Shown here: piece after piece, positions 1 through 7,249 of the stretch | Position numbering within the stretch: the stretch's first letter is position 1 | Layout: each line of letters opens with the position of its first letter | Source: an uncultured Thermomonas sp. | GTDB lineage: Bacteria > Pseudomonadota > Gammaproteobacteria > Xanthomonadales > Xanthomonadaceae | Reading direction: 5' to 3' | Assembly (NCBI GenBank): GCA_946480065.1 | Contig: CAMLJA010000094.1 | Coordinates: forward strand, 1 to 7,249 | Length of the DNA: 7,249 nucleotides | Program-made: the position numbers and the translations under genes | Notes under the pieces: generated by a model | The model's input: only the letters and a program-made list of their open reading frames with translations | Database searches by the model: none | What the model was told of the DNA's origin: nothing

Positions 1-1
1 G

Positions 2-1030
2 GTGGTGGACAAGGAGAACGGCGGCAAGGCCGACGCCCTCAACGCCGGCATCAACACCGCGCGCTATCCCCTGTTCTGCGTGGTCGATGCCGACTGCATC
101 CTGCAGCAGGACAGCCTGGCGCGGGTGGTGCAGCCGTTCCTGGAGGACGCCACCACCGTGGCCACCGGCGGCGTTATCCGCGTGGTCAACGGCTGCAAGG
201 TCAAGAACGGCCTGATGGCGAAGGTGGAGCTGCCGGACAAGCTGCTGCCGCTGGTGCAGACGATCGAATACCTGCGCGCGTTCCTGTTCGGGCGCCTGGG
301 CTGGTCGCCGATCAACGCCCTGCTGATCATCTCGGGCGCGTTCGGCGTGTTCTACAAGGAGCGCGTGATCGCCGCCGGCGGCTACCAGCGCGACGTGGTG
401 GGCGAGGACATGGAGATGGTGGTGCGCCTGCACGACCACCTGCGCGAGGAGAAGCGGCCGTACCGGATCAGCTTCGTGCCCGACCCGATCTGCTGGACCG
501 AGGTGCCCACCGACCTGCGCTCGCTCTACAACCAGCGCGTGCGCTGGCAACAGGGCCTGGCCGAAAGCCTGTTCGGCAACTGGCGCCTGATGTTCCGCCG
601 CAACGGCGGCGCGGTGGGCTGGCTGGCGTACCCGTTCATGATGCTGTTCGAGTGCCTGGGCCCGGTGGTCGAGGTGCTGGGCTACGCGTCGGTGATCGCG
701 CTGGGCCTGACCGGCAACCTGTCGCCCGAGGCCTTCTTCGTGTTCCTGTTCGCCTCGATCGGGCTGGGGGTGCTGCTCTCGGTCAACGCGATGGTGCTGG
801 AGGAAATCTCCTTCCACCTGTATCCGCGCCCCGGCCAGCAGCTGAAGCTGTTCCTGGTCGCGATCCTGGAAAACCTGGGCTACCGCCAGATGACCTCGGT
901 GTTCCGGGTGATCGGCCTGCTGCGCTGGCTGCTGTCGCTGCGGCGGCGCGGGCACTGGGGCCATGTGCGCCGCCACGGCGACTGGGACGACCAGGCGCCC
1001 AAGGCCGCGGTCGGCGAGGCCACGCCATGA
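2..1030 (+). CDS. Membrane-bound family 2 glycosyltransferase, processive polysaccharide synthase type (5' end missing)
   Basis: This is the C-terminal 342 residues of a GT2 enzyme; the frame is open to the left edge, so the GTG at 2 is not the true start. Visible GT2 landmarks in order are a DAD metal/UDP-binding motif (86-94), the GED acceptor/catalytic-base motif (ED at 404-409) and a QRVRW motif followed by QQG (533-556), the QxxRW signature of processive synthases such as PgaC/IcaA, NodC, HasA and BcsA. Hydrophobic segments follow at about residues 204-237 and 243-266, with a further amphipathic or membrane stretch near 285-310 and a short basic tail, presumably cytoplasmic. Family knowledge: such enzymes polymerise a nucleotide-sugar in the cytoplasm and pass the chain through the inner membrane. 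The neighbouring outer-membrane TPR-barrel gene supports polysaccharide export. The sugar cannot be read from the sequence. About 100-150 N-terminal residues, including the start of the nucleotide-binding fold, lie upstream of the window. Confidence 0.9.
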   Translation: MVDKENGGKADALNAGINTARYPLFCVVDADCILQQDSLARVVQPFLEDATTVATGGVIRVVNGCKVKNGLMAKVELPDKLLPLVQTIEYLRAFLFGRLGWSPINALLIISGAFGVFYKERVIAAGGYQRDVVGEDMEMVVRLHDHLREEKRPYRISFVPDPICWTEVPTDLRSLYNQRVRWQQGLAESLFGNWRLMFRRNGGAVGWLAYPFMMLFECLGPVVEVLGYASVIALGLTGNLSPEAFFVFLFASIGLGVLLSVNAMVLEEISFHLYPRPGQQLKLFLVAILENLGYRQMTSVFRVIGLLRWLLSLRRRGHWGHVRRHGDWDDQAPKAAVGEATP

Positions 1031-1050
1031 CCGCCCATCCCGCTTCCGCG

Positions 1051-1055
1051 AAGGA
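1051..1055 (+). promoter_or_regulatory. Shine-Dalgarno site that fixes the yaiO-like start
   Basis: AAGGA lies 7 bases before the ATG at 1063. It favours that start over the in-frame ATG at 1027, which overlaps the upstream stop codon as ATGA but has no comparable site and would place 12 polar residues ahead of the signal peptide. Confidence 0.6.
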
Positions 1056-1062
1056 CTCCCCG

Positions 1063-2331
1063 ATGCGCCTGCTGCTGCCCGCCCTGCTCCCGCTCGCGCT
1101 GCTCTCAGTCGGTGCTCCCGCGGCCGCCCAGTCGGCGCCAGCCGCCGCCGACGGTTACGTGGCGCGGCTCGAACAGGCCCGCGCGCTGGCCACCTCGGGC
1201 GATCCGACGCAGCGCGAACAGGCGCTGGCGCTGTACGCGGCCATGCTGGCGGATTCCCCCGGCAACAGCGACGTGCTGCTCGCGCGCGGCCGCACCTTCG
1301 CGTGGATGCAGCGCTACGCGGAGGCCGAATCGGACCTGCGCGCGGTCACCGACGCGCGCCCGGATTACGCCGACGCCTGGTCCGCGTTGGGCGACATGTA
1401 CCTGTGGAGCGGGCGCCCGCGGCTGGCGGCCGATGCCTACGCGCACTGGGTGGCGCTGGCGCCGGACGACCCGGCGCCGCGCGTCGCCCGCGGCCGCGCC
1501 CTGCGCGATGCCGGCGATCCCGAGGGCGCCCGCATCGACTTCGCCGCCGCCGCCGAGCGCGGTGCGCCCGCCGCGGACGCGGCGCGCCTGGCCGCGGGCG
1601 CCGACCCGCGGACGGCCCTGCCCGAGGCCACGGTGGGCGACGGCTATTCGTGGTCGCTGCGCGCCGGCCTGGACCGCACGACGTTCACCGGCGGACGCGA
1701 GGCCTGGACCGACGCCGACGTGGCGCTGCGGCGCAAGTTCGAGCGCGGTTCGCTGGCGCTGGAATGGCTGCAGGCGGACCATTTCGGCCGCACCAACCAC
1801 GCGTGGGCGCTGGACGGCTACGCGTCGCTGTGGGCGCGCGCCTATGCCAACCTGCGCTACCAGCGCGGTCCGTCGGACGGCATCCTGCCGCGCGACGCCT
1901 GGCGCGCGGAGCTGTTCCAGGGCGTGGGCCGCGGCTGGGAACTGTCGGCCAGCGTGGACCACCTGCGCTACAACTCGGATACCGAGTTCTACGGCGTGGG
2001 CGTGGGCCGCTACGTCGGCAACTGGTACCTGCGCTACAAGCTGCAGCACGTGCCCGGCGTGAGTTCCGGCAGCTGGAGCCACCGCGTGCTCGCGCGCAAC
2101 TACTACCGCGGCGACGCCGACGACTACTTCGAGGTCAGCGCCGGCAGCGGCCGCAGCAGCGACCTCGACCGCACGGGCGCCCTGGTCCGCAACAGCAACG
2201 CGGCGCTCGGCGTGGCCTGGGTGCATTACTTCCACCCTCGCTGGGGGTTCAAGATCGGCGCCGGTTATGCCGACGACGCCGACGGCTTCGACGAACGCCG
2301 GCTGTCGTTCGCGCTGTACACGCGCTGGTGA
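1063..2331 (+). CDS. Secreted TPR plus YaiO-type outer-membrane beta-barrel protein, probable polysaccharide export porin
   Basis: The protein is 422 residues from ATG 1063, chosen because of the AAGGA site and because it gives a clean signal peptide: MR, a Leu-rich core, and cleavage near PAAAQ at about residues 20-23. Residues ~28-165 form three to four TPR-like helical pairs (the ALALYAAMLADSPGN and AWSALGDMYLWSGRP stretches are typical). Residues ~195-422 are alternating polar/aromatic strands with no long hydrophobic helix, ending in an aromatic residue (YTRW) as many barrels do. This resembles the YaiO outer-membrane domain. PgaA, the PNAG exporter, has the same order of parts (periplasmic TPRs, then barrel) but is about twice as long. 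The start is 32 bases after the glycosyltransferase stop, so the two are probably co-transcribed. Role inferred: passage of the polymer through the outer membrane, with the TPR part binding chain or partner proteins. The symbol yaiO is withheld because orthology to the TPR-less E. coli protein is not shown. Confidence 0.8.
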   Translation: MRLLLPALLPLALLSVGAPAAAQSAPAAADGYVARLEQARALATSGDPTQREQALALYAAMLADSPGNSDVLLARGRTFAWMQRYAEAESDLRAVTDARPDYADAWSALGDMYLWSGRPRLAADAYAHWVALAPDDPAPRVARGRALRDAGDPEGARIDFAAAAERGAPAADAARLAAGADPRTALPEATVGDGYSWSLRAGLDRTTFTGGREAWTDADVALRRKFERGSLALEWLQADHFGRTNHAWALDGYASLWARAYANLRYQRGPSDGILPRDAWRAELFQGVGRGWELSASVDHLRYNSDTEFYGVGVGRYVGNWYLRYKLQHVPGVSSGSWSHRVLARNYYRGDADDYFEVSAGSGRSSDLDRTGALVRNSNAALGVAWVHYFHPRWGFKIGAGYADDADGFDERRLSFALYTRW

Positions 2332-4721
2332 CGGAGCGCGCCGCCGCGCGTGCCCCCGACGACGCCGGGCCTGGCCCGGCGTCGCGCTTCCTGGCCTGGT
2401 ACCCGGCGCTGCTGCTGGCCCAGCTGGCACTGGCCGGTTGGGCGCTGGCGGCCGGGCTGGGCGAGGACGCCAGCGGAGCGTCGCCGACCGCGGTGGGGGC
2501 GGCGGCGATCGGCAACCAGCTGCTGGGGCTGCTGCGGGCCACCCCAGTGCTCTTCCTGGTGTCCTGGCCGCTGCTGCGGCTGCGCGGCGCGCGCGCGCGG
2601 CTGCTGGCCGCCGGCGTCGCCTGGTCGCTGTTCCTGTTGGCGCAGGTCGCGCTGGAACAGTACTTCCTCGCCGCGCGCACGCCGCTGGGCGCCGACCTGT
2701 TCGGCTACACCCTGCGGGAGATCCGCACCACGATCGCGGGCACCGCGCCGGATGCCGCCGGCCTGCTGGGCTGGCTGCTGCCGCTGGCGGCCCTGTGGCT
2801 GGGCCTGGCGTGGCGGGCGCGGCGTACAGTCCGCCGCCGCGGCCGCGCCGCCGCGGTGCTGGTGCTGGCGGGCATGGCGACGTGGGCTCTGCCGGTCGCG
2901 GCGGGCGTGCGCGGGTTCCCCGAGGCCGCCCGCGACCTGGCCACGGACAAGCTGGCGTATTTCGCGGCCGACGCCCTGCACTGGCTAGGCGGCTCCGCGC
3001 AGGGCGCGGCCACCGCGGCGGTGGCCGCTCGCGCCGGGGGCGAATCGCAGGGCGCGGATGCCGATGCCGCCTTCCCGTTCCTGCACGCCGAGGCCACGCC
3101 CGACGCATTGGGCCCGTACTTCGGGCCCACCCGGGACGGCCGCCCGCCGAACATCGTGGTGATCGTGGTCGAAGGCCTGGGGCGGTCGTTCTCCGGCCCG
3201 GGCGCGCCGCTCGGCAGCTTCACCCCGTTCCTGGACACGCTGGCCGCGCGCGGCCTGTACTTCGAGAATTTCCTGGCCAACCAGGGCCGCACGTTCGGGG
3301 TGCTGCCGTCGCTGTTCGGCTCGCTGCCGGTGGCCGACCAGGGATTCGCCGCGCTGGGCCGGCGGATGCCGCCGCACGCCGGGCTGTTCAACGTGCTGCA
3401 GCGGCAGGGCTACCAGGCCGCCTTCTACGCCGGCTTCGACCTGGGTTTCGACAACGAGCGCGCCTTCCTGCAGCTGCAGGAAGTCGAGCGCCAGGTGGGG
3501 CTGGCCAACTTCGGCCCCGGCTACCGCAAGAACCCCTACAGCGAATGGGGCTACCCGGACAGCGAGCTGGTTTCGCGGGTGATCGCCGATGCCGGGCGCC
3601 TGCAGCCTCCGTTCGTGCTGGCGATGCAGACCATCAGCATGCACACCACCTACCGCTTCCCCGGCCAGGAGGCCTACCTGGCCCGGCTGGAGCCGCGGCT
3701 GGACGCGCTGGGCATCCCGCAGGCGCGCCGCGGCGCCTACCGCCGCGACGCCGCCATCTACAGCACCGTCCTGTTCACCGACGACCAGCTGCGGCGGTAT
3801 TTCGAAGCGGCCGAACGCGCGCCGTGGTACCCGGACACCATCTTCCTGGTGACCGGCGACCACCGCCTCACCGAGATCCCGATGGATACCTACATCGACC
3901 GCTACCACGTGCCGCTGCTGGTGTTCTCGCCGCTGCTGCGCAGGCCGGCGCGGATCGGCGCGGTGTCCTCGCACCTGGACGTCACGCCGTCGCTGCTGGC
4001 GCTGCTCTCGCATTCCTACGGGCTGCGGCGGCCGGCGCGGACGACCTGGACGGGGCCGGGCCTGGACATGGGCGCGGCGTTCGCCAGCCGGCACGCGATC
4101 CCGCTGAAGCACACCAAGACCAGCGACGTGGACTTCGTGGCCGGGCGCTGGTTCGTGCACGACGGCGAGGTGGCGGAACTGTTGGACGGCATGCGCACGG
4201 CGCCGGTGGACGATGCCGGCGTGCGCGCCTGGGCGCTGCGGCAGCGCGACGCCTACCTGGCCGAGAACGCGACCTTCCTGCGCCGCGGCGCGCTGTCGCC
4301 GGAGGGCGGCGCGCCCGCGCTGGTCGCGTTCGCGGCGACTCCCGCCGCGCCCTCGCCCGCCACCGCGGCCGCGCCGCTGCCGGCGGGCCTGGGCCTGGAC
4401 GCGGTGCATGCGCAACCGGGCGGCGGCGGGGTGGAAGTGGTGGCCACCTTCGCCAATGGCGATGCCGCCGACTCGCGCGGCTTCGTGCCGCTGGCGGTGC
4501 TGGCCGCCGGGGACGGACGCGAACTTCGCGAGGCCTACGGCGCGGCGGTGGTGCTGCGCCCGGGCGAGCGCCGCCAGGTGCGCCTGCTGCTGGAGGCGCC
4601 CGCGCTGGCGCCCGGCCGCTATTACGTCTCGGTGCTGCCCTCCGATCCGGACACCGGCAAGCCGGTCGGCCGCGGGCGCTACAAGCTGGCGGTGGACATC
4701 GCCGGCGGCGCGGCGCCGTGA
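2328..4721 (+). CDS. LtaS/OpgB-like membrane sulfatase-fold transferase with extra C-terminal beta domain
   Basis: The protein is 797 residues from GTG 2328, which overlaps the upstream stop as GTGA; no Shine-Dalgarno is evident, so translational coupling is likely. Five hydrophobic segments (about residues 21-44, 64-85, 90-115, 144-165, 172-195) precede a periplasmic alkaline-phosphatase/sulfatase-superfamily domain (~265-590). Expected active-site positions are present: E282 in VVEGLGRSF (metal), T322 in QGRTFG (nucleophile position), H439 in SMHTTY, and D511-H512 in VTGDHR (metal/substrate). A threonine nucleophile is typical of LtaS, OpgB and EptA-like phosphotransferases, whereas true sulfatases use a Cys/Ser that is converted to formylglycine. 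A Pro/Ala linker (~665-690) leads to a beta-rich, Ig-like tail of ~105 residues. Family knowledge: these enzymes transfer phosphoglycerol or phosphoethanolamine from phospholipid head groups to glycans or lipids. Context suggests decoration of the operon's polysaccharide, as BcsG does for cellulose and OpgB for periplasmic glucans. Donor and acceptor are unknown. Confidence 0.85.
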   Translation: MTERAAARAPDDAGPGPASRFLAWYPALLLAQLALAGWALAAGLGEDASGASPTAVGAAAIGNQLLGLLRATPVLFLVSWPLLRLRGARARLLAAGVAWSLFLLAQVALEQYFLAARTPLGADLFGYTLREIRTTIAGTAPDAAGLLGWLLPLAALWLGLAWRARRTVRRRGRAAAVLVLAGMATWALPVAAGVRGFPEAARDLATDKLAYFAADALHWLGGSAQGAATAAVAARAGGESQGADADAAFPFLHAEATPDALGPYFGPTRDGRPPNIVVIVVEGLGRSFSGPGAPLGSFTPFLDTLAARGLYFENFLANQGRTFGVLPSLFGSLPVADQGFAALGRRMPPHAGLFNVLQRQGYQAAFYAGFDLGFDNERAFLQLQEVERQVGLANFGPGYRKNPYSEWGYPDSELVSRVIADAGRLQPPFVLAMQTISMHTTYRFPGQEAYLARLEPRLDALGIPQARRGAYRRDAAIYSTVLFTDDQLRRYFEAAERAPWYPDTIFLVTGDHRLTEIPMDTYIDRYHVPLLVFSPLLRRPARIGAVSSHLDVTPSLLALLSHSYGLRRPARTTWTGPGLDMGAAFASRHAIPLKHTKTSDVDFVAGRWFVHDGEVAELLDGMRTAPVDDAGVRAWALRQRDAYLAENATFLRRGALSPEGGAPALVAFAATPAAPSPATAAAPLPAGLGLDAVHAQPGGGGVEVVATFANGDAADSRGFVPLAVLAAGDGRELREAYGAAVVLRPGERRQVRLLLEAPALAPGRYYVSVLPSDPDTGKPVGRGRYKLAVDIAGGAAP

Positions 4722-5689
4722 GCGGCCGCGCCGCCCGCTGGCTCCTCGGCGCGCTGCTGGCGGTGCTGGCGCTGTCCGCCGGCGGCGCCGGCCCGCGCCC
4801 GCCACCGGCGTCGCGCGCGGTCTGGACCTGGGAGCAGCCGTCCTACGCGATGCTGGAATCGCCCGCGGTGGCGGACGAGGCGCTGGACTTCCTGGCGCGC
4901 AAGCGGATCGGCATCGTCTACCTGTACGCCGACGCGTTCGGCGGCCGCAACCTGCTGGTGCAGGAGCCGGCGCGCTACCGCGCCTTCATCCGTGCCGCGC
5001 ATGCGCGCGGGATCCGGGTGTACGCGCTGCTGGGCTCCTGGTACCTGCATACCGAGCGCTACGTGCTGCCCGCGCACCAGCGCGAGGCGGTGGCGATGCT
5101 GCAGCGGGTGCTGGACTACAACGCCACGTCCGCGCGCCGGGAGCGCTTCGACGGCGTGAACTACGACATCGAGCCGCACCTGCTGGACGAGTGGAACGAC
5201 GCCGCCCGGCCGCGGCTGCTGCGCGGCTTCCTGGACATGACTGCGGCGATGATGGCCGCCCGGCGCAAGTCGGGGCAGGCGCTGCCGGTGGGGCCGGCGA
5301 TGCCGTTCTGGTGGGACGGCATCACGGTGGAGTGGCGGGGCGCGCGCAAGCCCGCCAGCCAGCACGTGGCCGACCTGACCGACTTCGTGGCGCTGATGGA
5401 CTACCGCAACCGCGCGGCGGGCAGCGACTCGATCCTCTCGCACGCGCAGGACGAACTGGACTACGCGCGCCGCACCGGCAAGCGGGTGGCGATCGGCCTG
5501 GAGTTCAACCCGTCCACCCCGGCCAAGCTCAGCTTCCACGGCCGGAGCGAGGCCGCGTTCGAACGCGAGGCGGCGGCGGTGGAGGCGGCCTGGGGCGGGG
5601 ACCCGGCGTTCGCGGGCTTCGTCTTCCACCACTACGAAGGCTACCGGCGTTTCGTGGGCGCCCCGGTGCCCGGCGACGCGCCGCCCTGA
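4718..5689 (+). CDS. Secreted GH18-like TIM-barrel protein, putative polysaccharide hydrolase
   Basis: The protein is 323 residues from GTG 4718, which overlaps the upstream stop as GTGA. The start is supported by the signal peptide or anchor it creates: MSGRAARW, a Leu/Ala core to about residue 21, then a Gly/Pro stretch. I do not recognise a named family, but the mature part reads as a (beta/alpha)8 barrel. The strand RIGIVYLYAD is followed by GIRVYALLG, then FDGVNYDIEP (D145, N148, D150, E152), ALMDYRN (M227-N231), VAIGLEFNP and FAGFVFHHYEGY. FDGVNYDIE matches the GH18 DGxDxDxE signature except that Asn replaces the middle Asp; the proton-donor position E152 and the preceding D150 are kept. 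ALMDYR lies where GH18 enzymes carry MxYD. The inferred role is periplasmic cleavage or trimming of the polymer made by the operon, comparable to the glycosidase domain of PgaB. A non-catalytic glycan-binding role is also possible. Confidence 0.7.
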   Translation: MSGRAARWLLGALLAVLALSAGGAGPRPPPASRAVWTWEQPSYAMLESPAVADEALDFLARKRIGIVYLYADAFGGRNLLVQEPARYRAFIRAAHARGIRVYALLGSWYLHTERYVLPAHQREAVAMLQRVLDYNATSARRERFDGVNYDIEPHLLDEWNDAARPRLLRGFLDMTAAMMAARRKSGQALPVGPAMPFWWDGITVEWRGARKPASQHVADLTDFVALMDYRNRAAGSDSILSHAQDELDYARRTGKRVAIGLEFNPSTPAKLSFHGRSEAAFEREAAAVEAAWGGDPAFAGFVFHHYEGYRRFVGAPVPGDAPP

Positions 5690-5704
5690 GCGCTCAGCGC
5701 TCGG
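5686..5704. other. Hairpin/palindrome joining two convergent genes
   Basis: TGAGCGCTCA at 5687-5696 is a perfect 10-bp palindrome containing the TGA of the GH18-like gene (5687-5689) and, on the other strand, the TGA of the LysR gene (5694-5696). An overlapping stem, GAGCGC (5688-5693) and GCGCTC (5697-5702) around a TCA loop, can be extended by a wobble pair and a C-G pair to 5686/5704. It could help end transcription in both directions, but there is no T-run on either side, so it is not a standard intrinsic terminator. Confidence 0.35.
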
Positions 5705-6659
5705 AGTGCCCGCCCTCGTCGTAGCCGCGGGGCGCCAGCAGGTCGGGCTTGATCAGCTCGGCGAAGGCGCGCGCCTGCGGCGACAGGAACTTGCCCTTGC
5801 GCATCACGATCCCGTAGCTGCGCGCGGGGAACCAGCGCGCCAGCGAGCGCGCCGCCAGCCGCTGGCGGTCGGCATCGGTCAGGCAGATCGCGGTCACGAT
5901 GCTGATGCCCAGCCCCATCGCCACGTACTGCTTGATGACCTCCCAGCCGCCCACCTCCAGCGCCACGGTGTAGGGCACGCGGTTCTGCTGGAACACCAGG
6001 TCCACCAGCCGGTAGGTGGTCAGGCGCTTGGGCGGCAGGATCAGCCCGTAGGGCGACAGGTCCTCCAGCGCCAGCTCGCGCTTGCCGGCCAGCGGGTGGT
6101 CCGGCGGGGTGATCAGCATCGGGTCGAAGCGGTAGGCCGGCGCGTAGGCCAGGTCGGTGGGGACGTCCAGCATCGAGCCCACCGCCAGGTCCACCGCGTC
6201 GCTGCGCAGCAGGTCCAGCCCGCCGGCGCCGGTGACGTTGTGCAGGGTCAGCCGCACGTCCGGGTAGCGCTGGCGGAAGGCCTCCACGATCCCGGGCAGC
6301 AAATAGAGGATGGTGGAGCTGCCCGCGGCCACGTGCAGCTCGCCGGCATCCAGCCCGCGCACCCGTTCGCGGAAATCGGCGGCCAAGCCGTCCAGCCCCT
6401 CCACCAGCGGCCGCGCCATCTCGTACAGCAGTTCCCCTTCGCGGGTGGGCACCAGCCGCCGGCCGCTGCGCTCCAGCAGGCGCACCCCCAGTTCGCGCTC
6501 CAGCGCCTGCACCTGCAGGGTCACCGCCGGCTGGCTGAGGTAGAGCGCCTCGGCTGCGCGCGACACCGAGCCCAGCCGCGCCACCTGGCAGAACGCCCGC
6601 AGCGGCTTCAGGCGGGAACCCTTGTAGGCGAAGCGCACGGCAGCGGGGCCTTTCGCCAT
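5694..6659 (-). CDS. LysR-type transcriptional regulator with CysB-like effector domain, probable regulator of aceB
   Basis: The protein is 321 residues, normal for the family. Residues ~16-75 hold the winged helix-turn-helix: LKPLRAFCQVARLGSVSRAA, then LYLSQPAVTLQVQALERELG, the classic LysR recognition-helix region. Residues ~105-305 are the periplasmic-binding-protein-like effector domain, with GSSTILYLLPGIVEAF (113-128) at the first lobe and GGWEVIKQYVAMGLGISIV (237-255) near the hinge. The latter resembles CysB/Cbl-type proteins, as does the MRKGKFLSP stretch (286-294). The ATG at 6659 is preceded by AGGA with only 3 bases between, which is weak; a GTG at 6638 (V8), still ahead of the HTH, is an alternative. 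The gene is divergent from malate synthase A across 111 bp containing two palindromes, the usual LysR layout for controlling the neighbour and repressing itself. The effector is unknown; the CysB resemblance does not make this a sulfur regulator. Confidence 0.9.
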   Translation of the reverse strand: MAKGPAAVRFAYKGSRLKPLRAFCQVARLGSVSRAAEALYLSQPAVTLQVQALERELGVRLLERSGRRLVPTREGELLYEMARPLVEGLDGLAADFRERVRGLDAGELHVAAGSSTILYLLPGIVEAFRQRYPDVRLTLHNVTGAGGLDLLRSDAVDLAVGSMLDVPTDLAYAPAYRFDPMLITPPDHPLAGKRELALEDLSPYGLILPPKRLTTYRLVDLVFQQNRVPYTVALEVGGWEVIKQYVAMGLGISIVTAICLTDADRQRLAARSLARWFPARSYGIVMRKGKFLSPQARAFAELIKPDLLAPRGYDEGGHSER

Positions 6660-6672
6660 GGATCCTGCTTAT

Positions 6673-6691
6673 GTATTTGGAATGCAAATAC
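6673..6691. promoter_or_regulatory. Inverted repeat 1, candidate LysR-type operator
   Basis: Arms GTATTTG (6673-6679) and CAAATAC (6685-6691) are perfect complements around a 5-base centre GAATG. The inner 13 bases (T6676 to A6688) fit the loose T-N11-A pattern of LysR binding sites. It covers the predicted lysR transcription start and touches the lysR -10, consistent with self-repression. Confidence 0.5.
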
Positions 6692-6718
6692 TAAACATTG
6701 ACAAATCTGCTTTGTCAA
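6690..6718 (-). promoter_or_regulatory. Predicted lysR promoter
   Basis: On the minus strand a perfect -35 TTGACA (plus 6713-6718) is followed after 17 bases by TTTAGT (plus 6690-6695), which matches four of six -10 consensus positions. Transcription would begin near 6683 and reach the ATG at 6659 after a short leader. Confidence 0.5.
6698..6718. promoter_or_regulatory. Inverted repeat 2, operator-like palindrome carrying -35 elements on both strands
   Basis: Arms TTGACAAA (6698-6705) and TTTGTCAA (6711-6718) are perfect 8-bp complements around TCTGC. Each arm contains TTGACA reading outward on its own strand: plus 6698-6703 toward aceB, and the complement of 6713-6718 toward lysR. A protein bound here would cover both -35 elements. 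It could be the LysR operator or the site of another regulator. Confidence 0.55.
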
Positions 6719-6758
6719 ATACCACACGCTGGCGGATGGTTGGCCTCCATCAGGTTCC

Positions 6759-6764
6759 AGGGAG
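6759..6764 (+). promoter_or_regulatory. aceB ribosome binding site
   Basis: AGGGAG ends 6 bases before the ATG at 6771 and supports that start. Confidence 0.6.
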
Positions 6765-6770
6765 TCGCCG

Positions 6771-7249
6771 ATGTCCGCCGTGCTGCAAGACCGCCCCGGG
6801 GAGGGCGTGGAAGTCACCCGCCGCCTGCCCGGGCAGGACGCCCTGCTCACGCCGGCCGCGCTGGGCTTCCTGGCCGACCTGCACCGCCGCTTCGAGGGCG
6901 AGCGCCAGGCCCGGCTGGCGGCCCGCCGCGTCCGCCAGCAGGCGTTCGACGCCGGGGCGCTGCCGGACTTCCGCGCCGACACCGCCCCCCTGCGCGCCGC
7001 CGACTGGACCGTGGCGCCGACCCCGGCCGCGCTGCTGGACCGCCGGGTGGAGATCACCGGCCCGGTCGATCCGAAGATGGTCATCAACGCGCTGAACTCG
7101 GGCGCGAACTGCTACATGGCCGACTTCGAGGACAGCACCAGCCCCACCTGGGCCAATCTGCTGGCCGGCCAGCAGGCGCTGCGCGCGGCGATCAGCGGCG
7201 CGTTGGTCCACGAGGCCGGCGGCAAGCGCTACGAGCTGCGCCCGCAGGC
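6771..7249 (+). CDS. aceB: Malate synthase A, N-terminal part (3' end outside window)
   Basis: The open frame from ATG 6771 runs 159 codons to the right edge without a stop, about 30% of a typical malate synthase A of roughly 530 residues. The start has AGGGAG 6 bases upstream. Recognition rests on DRRVEITGPVDPKMVINALN (about residues 90-109) and the NCYMADFEDSTSPTW stretch (about 112-126), both close to the conserved N-terminal core of class A enzymes. The enzyme condenses glyoxylate with acetyl-CoA to give malate in the cytoplasm, the second step of the glyoxylate bypass used for growth on acetate and fatty acids. The catalytic acid and base residues lie further downstream and cannot be checked. 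The gene is divergent from the LysR regulator, its likely controller. In relatives isocitrate lyase (aceA) often follows, but that lies outside the window. Confidence 0.93.
   Translation, partial: MSAVLQDRPGEGVEVTRRLPGQDALLTPAALGFLADLHRRFEGERQARLAARRVRQQAFDAGALPDFRADTAPLRAADWTVAPTPAALLDRRVEITGPVDPKMVINALNSGANCYMADFEDSTSPTWANLLAGQQALRAAISGALVHEAGGKRYELRPQ

Follow-up and report, generated by a model that had tools for sequence, protein, structure and literature searches.

The 7,249-nucleotide stretch of DNA analysed here (the window; contig CAMLJA010000094.1, positions 1 to 7,249, from an uncultured Thermomonas sp.) carries four tightly packed plus-strand genes (Table 1) that encode a putative processive-type glycosyltransferase family 2 synthase (GT2), a YaiO-type outer-membrane protein in which tetratricopeptide repeats (TPR) and a beta-barrel are predicted, an LtaS/OpgB-type membrane phosphotransferase (LTAS) and a secreted, glycosidase-like protein (GHX). 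The packing described in an earlier note on this DNA, with one 32-bp gap and two 4-bp overlaps, is reproduced by the open reading frame coordinates: LTAS overlaps YaiO and GHX overlaps LTAS by 4 bp each, and the gap between GT2 and YaiO depends on the start chosen for the latter (ATG at 1063), with an earlier ATG at 1027 giving a third 4-bp overlap in its place. The start codon of GT2 is missing because the window opens inside this gene. We propose that the cluster encodes a surface-polysaccharide system of the synthase-dependent kind with a new set of parts, with a probability of roughly 0.72, starting from what is directly observed, namely the conservation and co-occurrence of the parts, their families and their predicted fold classes.

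Table 1. Features of the window and of related loci (positions are those of the window unless a locus is named).
Feature	Position	Strand	Description
GT2	2-1030	+	342 aa, 5' end cut by the window; PF13641; PgaC_IcaA is the best NCBIfam match, below cut-off
YaiO-type outer-membrane protein	1063-2331	+	422 aa; N-terminal signal (hydrophobic), predicted TPR helices and 14-strand beta-barrel
LTAS, LtaS/OpgB-type membrane phosphotransferase	2328-4721	+	797 aa, GTG start; PF00884
GHX, secreted TIM-barrel (predicted) glycosidase-like protein	4718-5689	+	323 aa, GTG start; no Pfam or NCBIfam match
LysR-type gene	5694-6659	-	convergent with GHX, directly 3' of the cluster
Inverted repeat TTGACAAA-N5-TTTGTCAA	6698-6718		perfect, 8 bp
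Malate-synthase-like gene, start only	6771 onward		assigned by reading of the sequence, no domain scan
CX5R phosphatase-like protein	L001:2616-3647, L042:2278-3258, L061:5980-7083 and others		
Diacylglycerol-kinase family gene	L029, L032, L047, L053, L054, L056, L058-L061, L074		

A scan with a GHX alignment, with one genome kept per species, yielded 74 loci in Xanthomonadales, Massilia and its relatives, Elusimicrobiota and a few other groups, several of them cut by contig ends; these loci were scored with profiles made from the same set. The neighbourhood comparison, proposed as a check in the earlier note, indicates that the genes remain together: LTAS is found beside GHX in 64 loci and a TPR-barrel in 67 (53 with YaiO, 14 more with a longer, distinct protein), together with GT2 in 47 and a gene for a HEAT-repeat protein in 46. 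All five genes fall within the fetched flanks in 33 of the 74 loci, of which 29 show the same-strand order HEAT-GT2-YaiO-LTAS-GHX, with a stop-to-stop length of 6,079-6,277 bp; HEAT-GT2 is divergent from YaiO-LTAS-GHX in four loci (L042, L057, L068, L069). The 14 loci of the Elusimicrobiota type combine GHX with the longer TPR-barrel, and 12 of them also encode CheY-HEAT-GT2, whereas six lack LTAS. The partners beside GHX in the Massilia group and in Elusimicrobiota, a second phylum, have about 40-60% protein identity. Among the neighbours listed, the flanking genes vary between the Thermomonas, Stenotrophomonas, Massilia-group and Elusimicrobiota loci, suggesting that the linkage of the cluster does not merely reflect general synteny.

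Thus, the parts of the four-gene set noticed earlier are confirmed but the set is not complete, since relatives add the HEAT protein 5' of GT2 and many of them a CheY receiver. The membrane-anchored HEAT protein (~355 aa) has one N-terminal hydrophobic stretch followed by positive residues and HEAT repeats, and in a close relative (L001) its gene overlaps GT2 by 4 bp; the window begins too far 3' to include it. The CheY receiver is encoded by a stand-alone gene beside HEAT in many relatives, often with a histidine kinase nearby. A gene for a further protein, CX5R phosphatase-like by its HCYLGxxR motif and hydrophobic at its N-terminus, occurs in 18 of the 74 loci close to HEAT or GT2; TPRs were found in the proteobacterial member scanned, and two members scanned gave no Pfam phosphatase match. 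Its link to the cluster is weak, with 54-64 bits in the seven proteobacterial loci among the 18.

Co-occurrence was assessed in 198 genomes drawn evenly from the family of Thermomonas and in 245 genomes from that of Massilia, with the centre genome included in each sample. GHX is present in 11 of the 198 genomes and LTAS in exactly the same 11 (at least 959 bits, the next match having 114), whereas YaiO at E 1e-30 is found in 10 of these 11 and in no others; in the second sample, GHX and LTAS share the same 4 of 245 genomes. The hypergeometric values for co-occurrence range from 3e-18 to 3e-4, with kinship ignored; loci from all four carriers of the second sample, and from two or more of the 11 in the first, were already known. 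GT2 is more widespread, being detected in 23 of 198 genomes at E 1e-90, including 10 of the 11 GHX genomes, and in 34 of 245 at E 1e-120, including the four carriers. We therefore rejected GT2 as a sole marker of the system of the window, because sister loci also have it. Nine of the 11 genomes with GHX and LTAS encode a window-type GT2 (at least 763 bits). One of the other two, G179, has a sister-type GT2 only (657 bits, one internal stop) and its cluster is split over two contigs; in the other, G053, GT2 and YaiO are unmatched and the LTAS match begins at position 65, so that the contig probably ends there.

The GT2 protein matches PF13641 (E 9.5e-14) and contains the motifs DAD (window positions 86-94), GED (401-409) and QRVRW (533-547). 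DAD, ED and QxxRW are invariant across 18 aligned sequences, full-length relatives have ~470-500 aa, and the hydropathy pattern resembles that of PgaC. Among 15 E. coli proteins, GT2 matches PgaC best (102 bits), ahead of YaiP (46 bits), which was dropped as the nearest synthase. At the level of sequence, the invariant motifs and the PgaC match favour the processive-type polysaccharide synthase of the earlier note over a non-processive, lipid-linked transferase.

The YaiO protein matches PF19413 above its cut-off (E 3.5e-26, 92.7 bits), TIGR04390 (117.9 bits, cut-off 32) and TPR families. The prediction of a TPR-barrel from the sequence agrees with the AlphaFold model, which consists of TPR helices and a 14-strand beta-barrel (predicted local distance difference test score 85.5), and with the Foldseek search of this model, in which BcsC comes first and PelBC is among the leading fold matches. 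To our knowledge, the YaiO family is represented in E. coli by an outer-membrane protein without an assigned role; the combination of TPR and pore in the model suggests that the YaiO of the cluster may be a polysaccharide export channel.

LTAS matches PF00884 (E 5.4e-30, 105.2 bits) and has five transmembrane helices by hydropathy. Its PF00884 domain includes E282, T322, H439, D511 and H512; E282, T322, D511 and H512 are invariant in 25 LTAS sequences, T322 and D511-H512 align with the Thr and DH of the LtaS2 chain 2w8d, and a Ser faces T322 in 3lxq. By family, catalytic Thr and DH motif, LTAS is thus an LtaS/OpgB-type phosphotransferase, as suspected at the outset, albeit one that scores below the NCBIfam OpgB/LtaS equivalog cut-offs (16.5-20.8 bits vs 572-970). 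The likeness to OpgB noticed earlier stands, given that OpgB is the sole match of the LTAS profile in the E. coli set, in which OpgB and BcsG are the two phosphotransferases; BcsG, which the profile does not match, was dropped as the nearest phosphotransferase. The profile also matches LtaS and LtaP chains. The C-terminal stretch of LTAS (window positions 4308-4718, residues ~661-797) is conserved as far as Elusimicrobiota and has no Pfam match. A 94% identical match of LTAS is labelled Thermomonas sp., and in Thermomonas sp. S9 (L003:6644-10873) LTAS and GHX share one open frame, through either fusion of the genes or an indel in the assembly, which is a long-read one.

PF00884 also includes sulfatases, and the top weak NCBIfam match of LTAS is a choline-sulfatase (23.4 bits vs 433). 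Accordingly, the genes might be neighbours without a joint function, or LTAS might be a phosphatase or sulfatase acting on an unrelated substrate. We consider this very improbable in view of the exact co-occurrence of LTAS and GHX in both genome samples, the retention of the partners in two phyla, and the invariant residues of LTAS with the Thr and DH of LtaS2 in register.

The matches of LTAS to OpgB rather than BcsG, and to LtaS and LtaP, would also fit a periplasmic or outer-membrane-anchored glycan, either similar to osmoregulated glucans or a glycerol-phosphate-extended glycolipid as in lipoteichoic acid, for which YaiO would be a receptor or anchor. Diacylglycerol kinase recycles the lipid by-product of OpgB-type transfer, and a gene of this family (PF01219 in the one member scanned) lies near GHX in 11 loci of the Elusimicrobiota type and in no other of the 74. 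The link of this kinase to LTAS is only partial, however, as five of the 11 kinase loci have LTAS and six do not. Together with the QxxRW-type GT2 nearest to PgaC, the TPR-barrel accompanying GHX in 67 of 74 loci, and the high rank of BcsC and PelBC in the YaiO fold search, this makes a periplasmic or anchored glycan unlikely.

GHX has no match to Pfam families at E 0.1 or to NCBIfam, and its profile does not match PgaB or BcsZ in the E. coli set. The predicted fold (AlphaFold) is a TIM-barrel similar to those of PgaB and GH18, in which D145, N148, D150 and E152 of the motif FDGVNYDIEPH lie at or near the end of strand beta-4. The protein also has the motifs MDYR and HHY. Thus, the GH18-like character proposed from the sequence holds for the predicted fold and not for the family, given the lack of a Pfam match and the motif DxxNxDxE instead of DxxDxDxE. 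The fold is also similar to that of GH153, the C-terminal domain of PgaB. Based on the fold and the conserved acidic residues, GHX might trim the polymer.

A partition of the system among loci is seen in 15 Massilia-group genomes, in each of which a single search identified one GT2 (the query is from G015, and the other 14 are at 71-75% identity). In 14 of the 15, GT2 is apart from YaiO-LTAS-GHX, on another contig in 12 and separated from them by over 300 kb of one contig in two (G004, G008), whereas in G015 it is within ~4 kb of LTAS-GHX on the opposite strand. All 15 synthase loci read CheY-HEAT-GT2, with at most 75 bp between CheY and HEAT and hence no room for YaiO. A Pfam search detected exactly one YaiO in each of these genomes (among 14 control genomes, in E. 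coli only), adjoining LTAS-GHX in 14 and on another contig in G015. With a single YaiO beside LTAS-GHX and none at the synthase locus, the LTAS-GHX locus in the split genomes appears to supply the barrel to the distant GT2. Directly after GT2, 13 of the 15 synthase loci (L076-L088; fetched 1.5 kb) encode a distant second GHX-like domain with an N-terminal region, for which one member scanned gave no Pfam match.

By contrast, eight loci from relatives with GT2 and without GHX, hand-picked from 30 such genomes, have YaiO between CheY and HEAT in five cases and HEAT-GT2 only in three (with lower-scoring GT2). In five comparison genomes, chosen after this result was known, YaiO is found at the synthase locus in each, and G292 has a second YaiO elsewhere. 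Ten further Xanthomonadaceae GT2 loci read CheY-YaiO-HEAT-GT2 (six; YaiO of L108 confirmed by Pfam), CheY-HEAT-GT2 without YaiO (two) and HEAT-GT2 alone (one), the remaining one being cut by a contig end. In the midpoint-rooted GT2 tree, eight of the ten sister loci form one clade (support 93/73) and L109 stands apart; the Massilia-group sequences form a clade of their own (support 80/100), and GT2 of the window is placed among those of Thermomonas. The GT2 of L115 is on a long branch among the relatives of the window; this locus (L115:8822-11544) encodes window-type HEAT and GT2 without partners and is perhaps a decaying remnant. Six sister loci (L108, L110-L112, L114, L119) have a large sensor histidine kinase gene beside CheY, CHASE3-like by sequence reading rather than by domain scan. 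These arrangements are read most simply as a core of HEAT, GT2 and YaiO that in many lineages stands under CheY, with LTAS and GHX belonging to one branch. From position and topology, HEAT and CheY may exert control, and CheY is the likely input in many relatives in place of cyclic di-GMP (c-di-GMP).

From its motifs, we propose that GT2, in the inner membrane, would polymerise a nucleotide sugar and pass the chain across this membrane; the HEAT protein is a putative cytoplasm-facing partner or regulator, and CheY the presumed input in many relatives. In the periplasm, LTAS would decorate the chain with a phosphoryl group, most probably phosphoglycerol or phosphoethanolamine, taken from a phospholipid; phosphatidylglycerol or phosphatidylethanolamine could be the donor. 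The secreted GHX may then bind the chain and trim it, the part that the C-terminal half of PgaB plays for poly-N-acetylglucosamine (PNAG), after which the TPR domain of YaiO would gather the chain and its predicted 14-strand barrel would export it. The sole hints of a polymer containing N-acetylhexosamine (HexNAc) are the resemblances to PgaC and to PgaB/GH18.

Several observations weigh against a surface-polysaccharide system. LTAS is missing from 10 of the 74 loci, four of which (L062, L070, L071, L073) have GHX without any partner; GT2 is often present without LTAS and GHX, and the co-occurrence may be due in part to the cluster having been transferred as a whole. The TM-score of YaiO with BcsC is low (0.37), ordinary porins are common in its Foldseek list, and the nearest VIA structural neighbours of the barrel are FadL-type proteins, OmpG and CymA. 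The barrels of PgaA, BcsC and AlgE have 16-18 strands, so that a 14-strand YaiO is narrower; furthermore, the YaiO profile gives no direct match to E. coli YaiO in the 15-protein set. The structural match of GHX to many TIM-barrel glycosidases is about as good as that to PgaB, and GT2 does not reach the PgaC_IcaA equivalog cut-off of 422.3 (137.6 bits for the full-length L001 relative, 85.4 for the window fragment). Pfam scans that covered one or two proteins for each of the five product types gave no PilZ or GGDEF match (non-canonical c-di-GMP binding is possible), and no sugar-nucleotide gene or deacetylase was seen in the cluster.

If the synthase-dependent reading is correct, the cluster gives the YaiO family a specific, testable role as channels for export, c-di-GMP-independent control can be tested directly at the CheY-HEAT-synthase neighbourhood, and the LTAS-GHX pair flags genomes in which a phosphorylated surface polymer is probably made.

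Outside the cluster, the inverted repeat between the divergent LysR-type and malate-synthase-like genes is a candidate LysR operator; none of 200 shuffles gives such a repeat, and a verbatim copy is absent from 125 loci. Scans of the window detected no tRNA genes, no Rfam families, and no promoters or terminators exceeding shuffled sequence.

PMC7112194 (2020) lists five synthase-dependent exopolysaccharides (cellulose, acetylated cellulose, PNAG, alginate and Pel) and, as typical parts, a synthase, a c-di-GMP-binding regulator or co-polymerase, modifying enzymes, and a TPR and pore. Against this list, the cluster has a predicted TPR-pore and candidates for the synthase (GT2) and for modification (LTAS, GHX), whereas for the c-di-GMP part the members scanned have no canonical domain. 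Pel and alginate were compared through general NCBIfam scans only. With the PNAG systems (pgaABCD/icaADBC), the cluster shares a GT2 near PgaC, a TPR and barrel exporter, and a TIM-barrel folded like the C-terminal half of PgaB. The parallel to PgaC and PgaA drawn in the earlier note does not extend to the equivalogs, as the cluster is well under the cut-offs of PgaC and PgaA (21.5 bits for YaiO vs 366.65 for the latter). A divergent pga system making poly-GlcNAc, in which YaiO would replace PgaA, would fit the rank of PgaC as the best GT2 match (E. coli set, NCBIfam) and the PgaB-like fold of GHX. It is quite unlikely, however, considering these scores, the failure of the GHX profile to match PgaB, the 14-strand barrel, and the addition of HEAT and of LTAS, which has no pga counterpart; moreover, no deacetylase or PgaD-like gene was noticed among the listed conserved neighbours, for which no profile search was made.

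Cellulose (bcs) systems with BcsG share with the synthase-dependent system proposed here a synthase, a TPR-barrel exporter and a membrane phosphotransferase. They differ in that GT2 is below the CelA cut-off (54 bits vs 699.1) and has no PilZ domain by Pfam scan, the LTAS profile matches OpgB and not BcsG, the GHX profile does not match BcsZ, and no BcsB-like gene was noticed among the listed conserved neighbours. The E. coli yaiO-yaiX-yaiP-yaiS genes likewise combine a YaiO barrel with a nearby GT2 gene, but YaiP lacks QxxRW, a deacetylase and an acyltransferase take the place of LTAS and GHX, and E. coli YaiO, at 257 aa, has the size of the barrel alone, compared with 422 aa in the window. 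OpgB/MdoB and LtaS share with LTAS the transmembrane helices and PF00884, the Thr nucleophile and the GDH motif, whereas LTAS is under their NCBIfam cut-offs, has the extra conserved C-terminal stretch, and adjoins a TPR-barrel exporter gene. The CheY-YaiO-HEAT-GT2 loci of other Xanthomonadaceae and Burkholderiaceae, for which we know of no name, share HEAT, GT2 and the YaiO barrel but lack LTAS and a close GHX, include CheY and often a histidine kinase, and have GT2s mostly from other clades. A Zetaproteobacterial stalk cluster and the xag genes named with it were dropped as candidates for the same system, as PMC8250860 describes a BcsB-like gene and others and never names YaiO. In agreement with the initial impression that no characterised system has this set, the compared systems do not fit, and full-text searches of open-access journal papers turned up no published description of the cluster among the matches listed.

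The likeness in parts combined with the failed PgaC, PgaA and CelA cut-offs suggests that the cluster works like a synthase-dependent system without being a member of the PNAG or cellulose systems as tested. More tentatively, and with less than even confidence, we hypothesize a class beyond the five of PMC7112194, with a HEAT-GT2-YaiO core in which phospho-CheY input via HEAT replaces c-di-GMP, and with a polymer in the LTAS-GHX branch that would be decorated with phosphoglycerol or phosphoethanolamine and probably contain HexNAc. The division of labour would be that of these five systems, achieved with different parts and recurring in Pseudomonadota and Elusimicrobiota.
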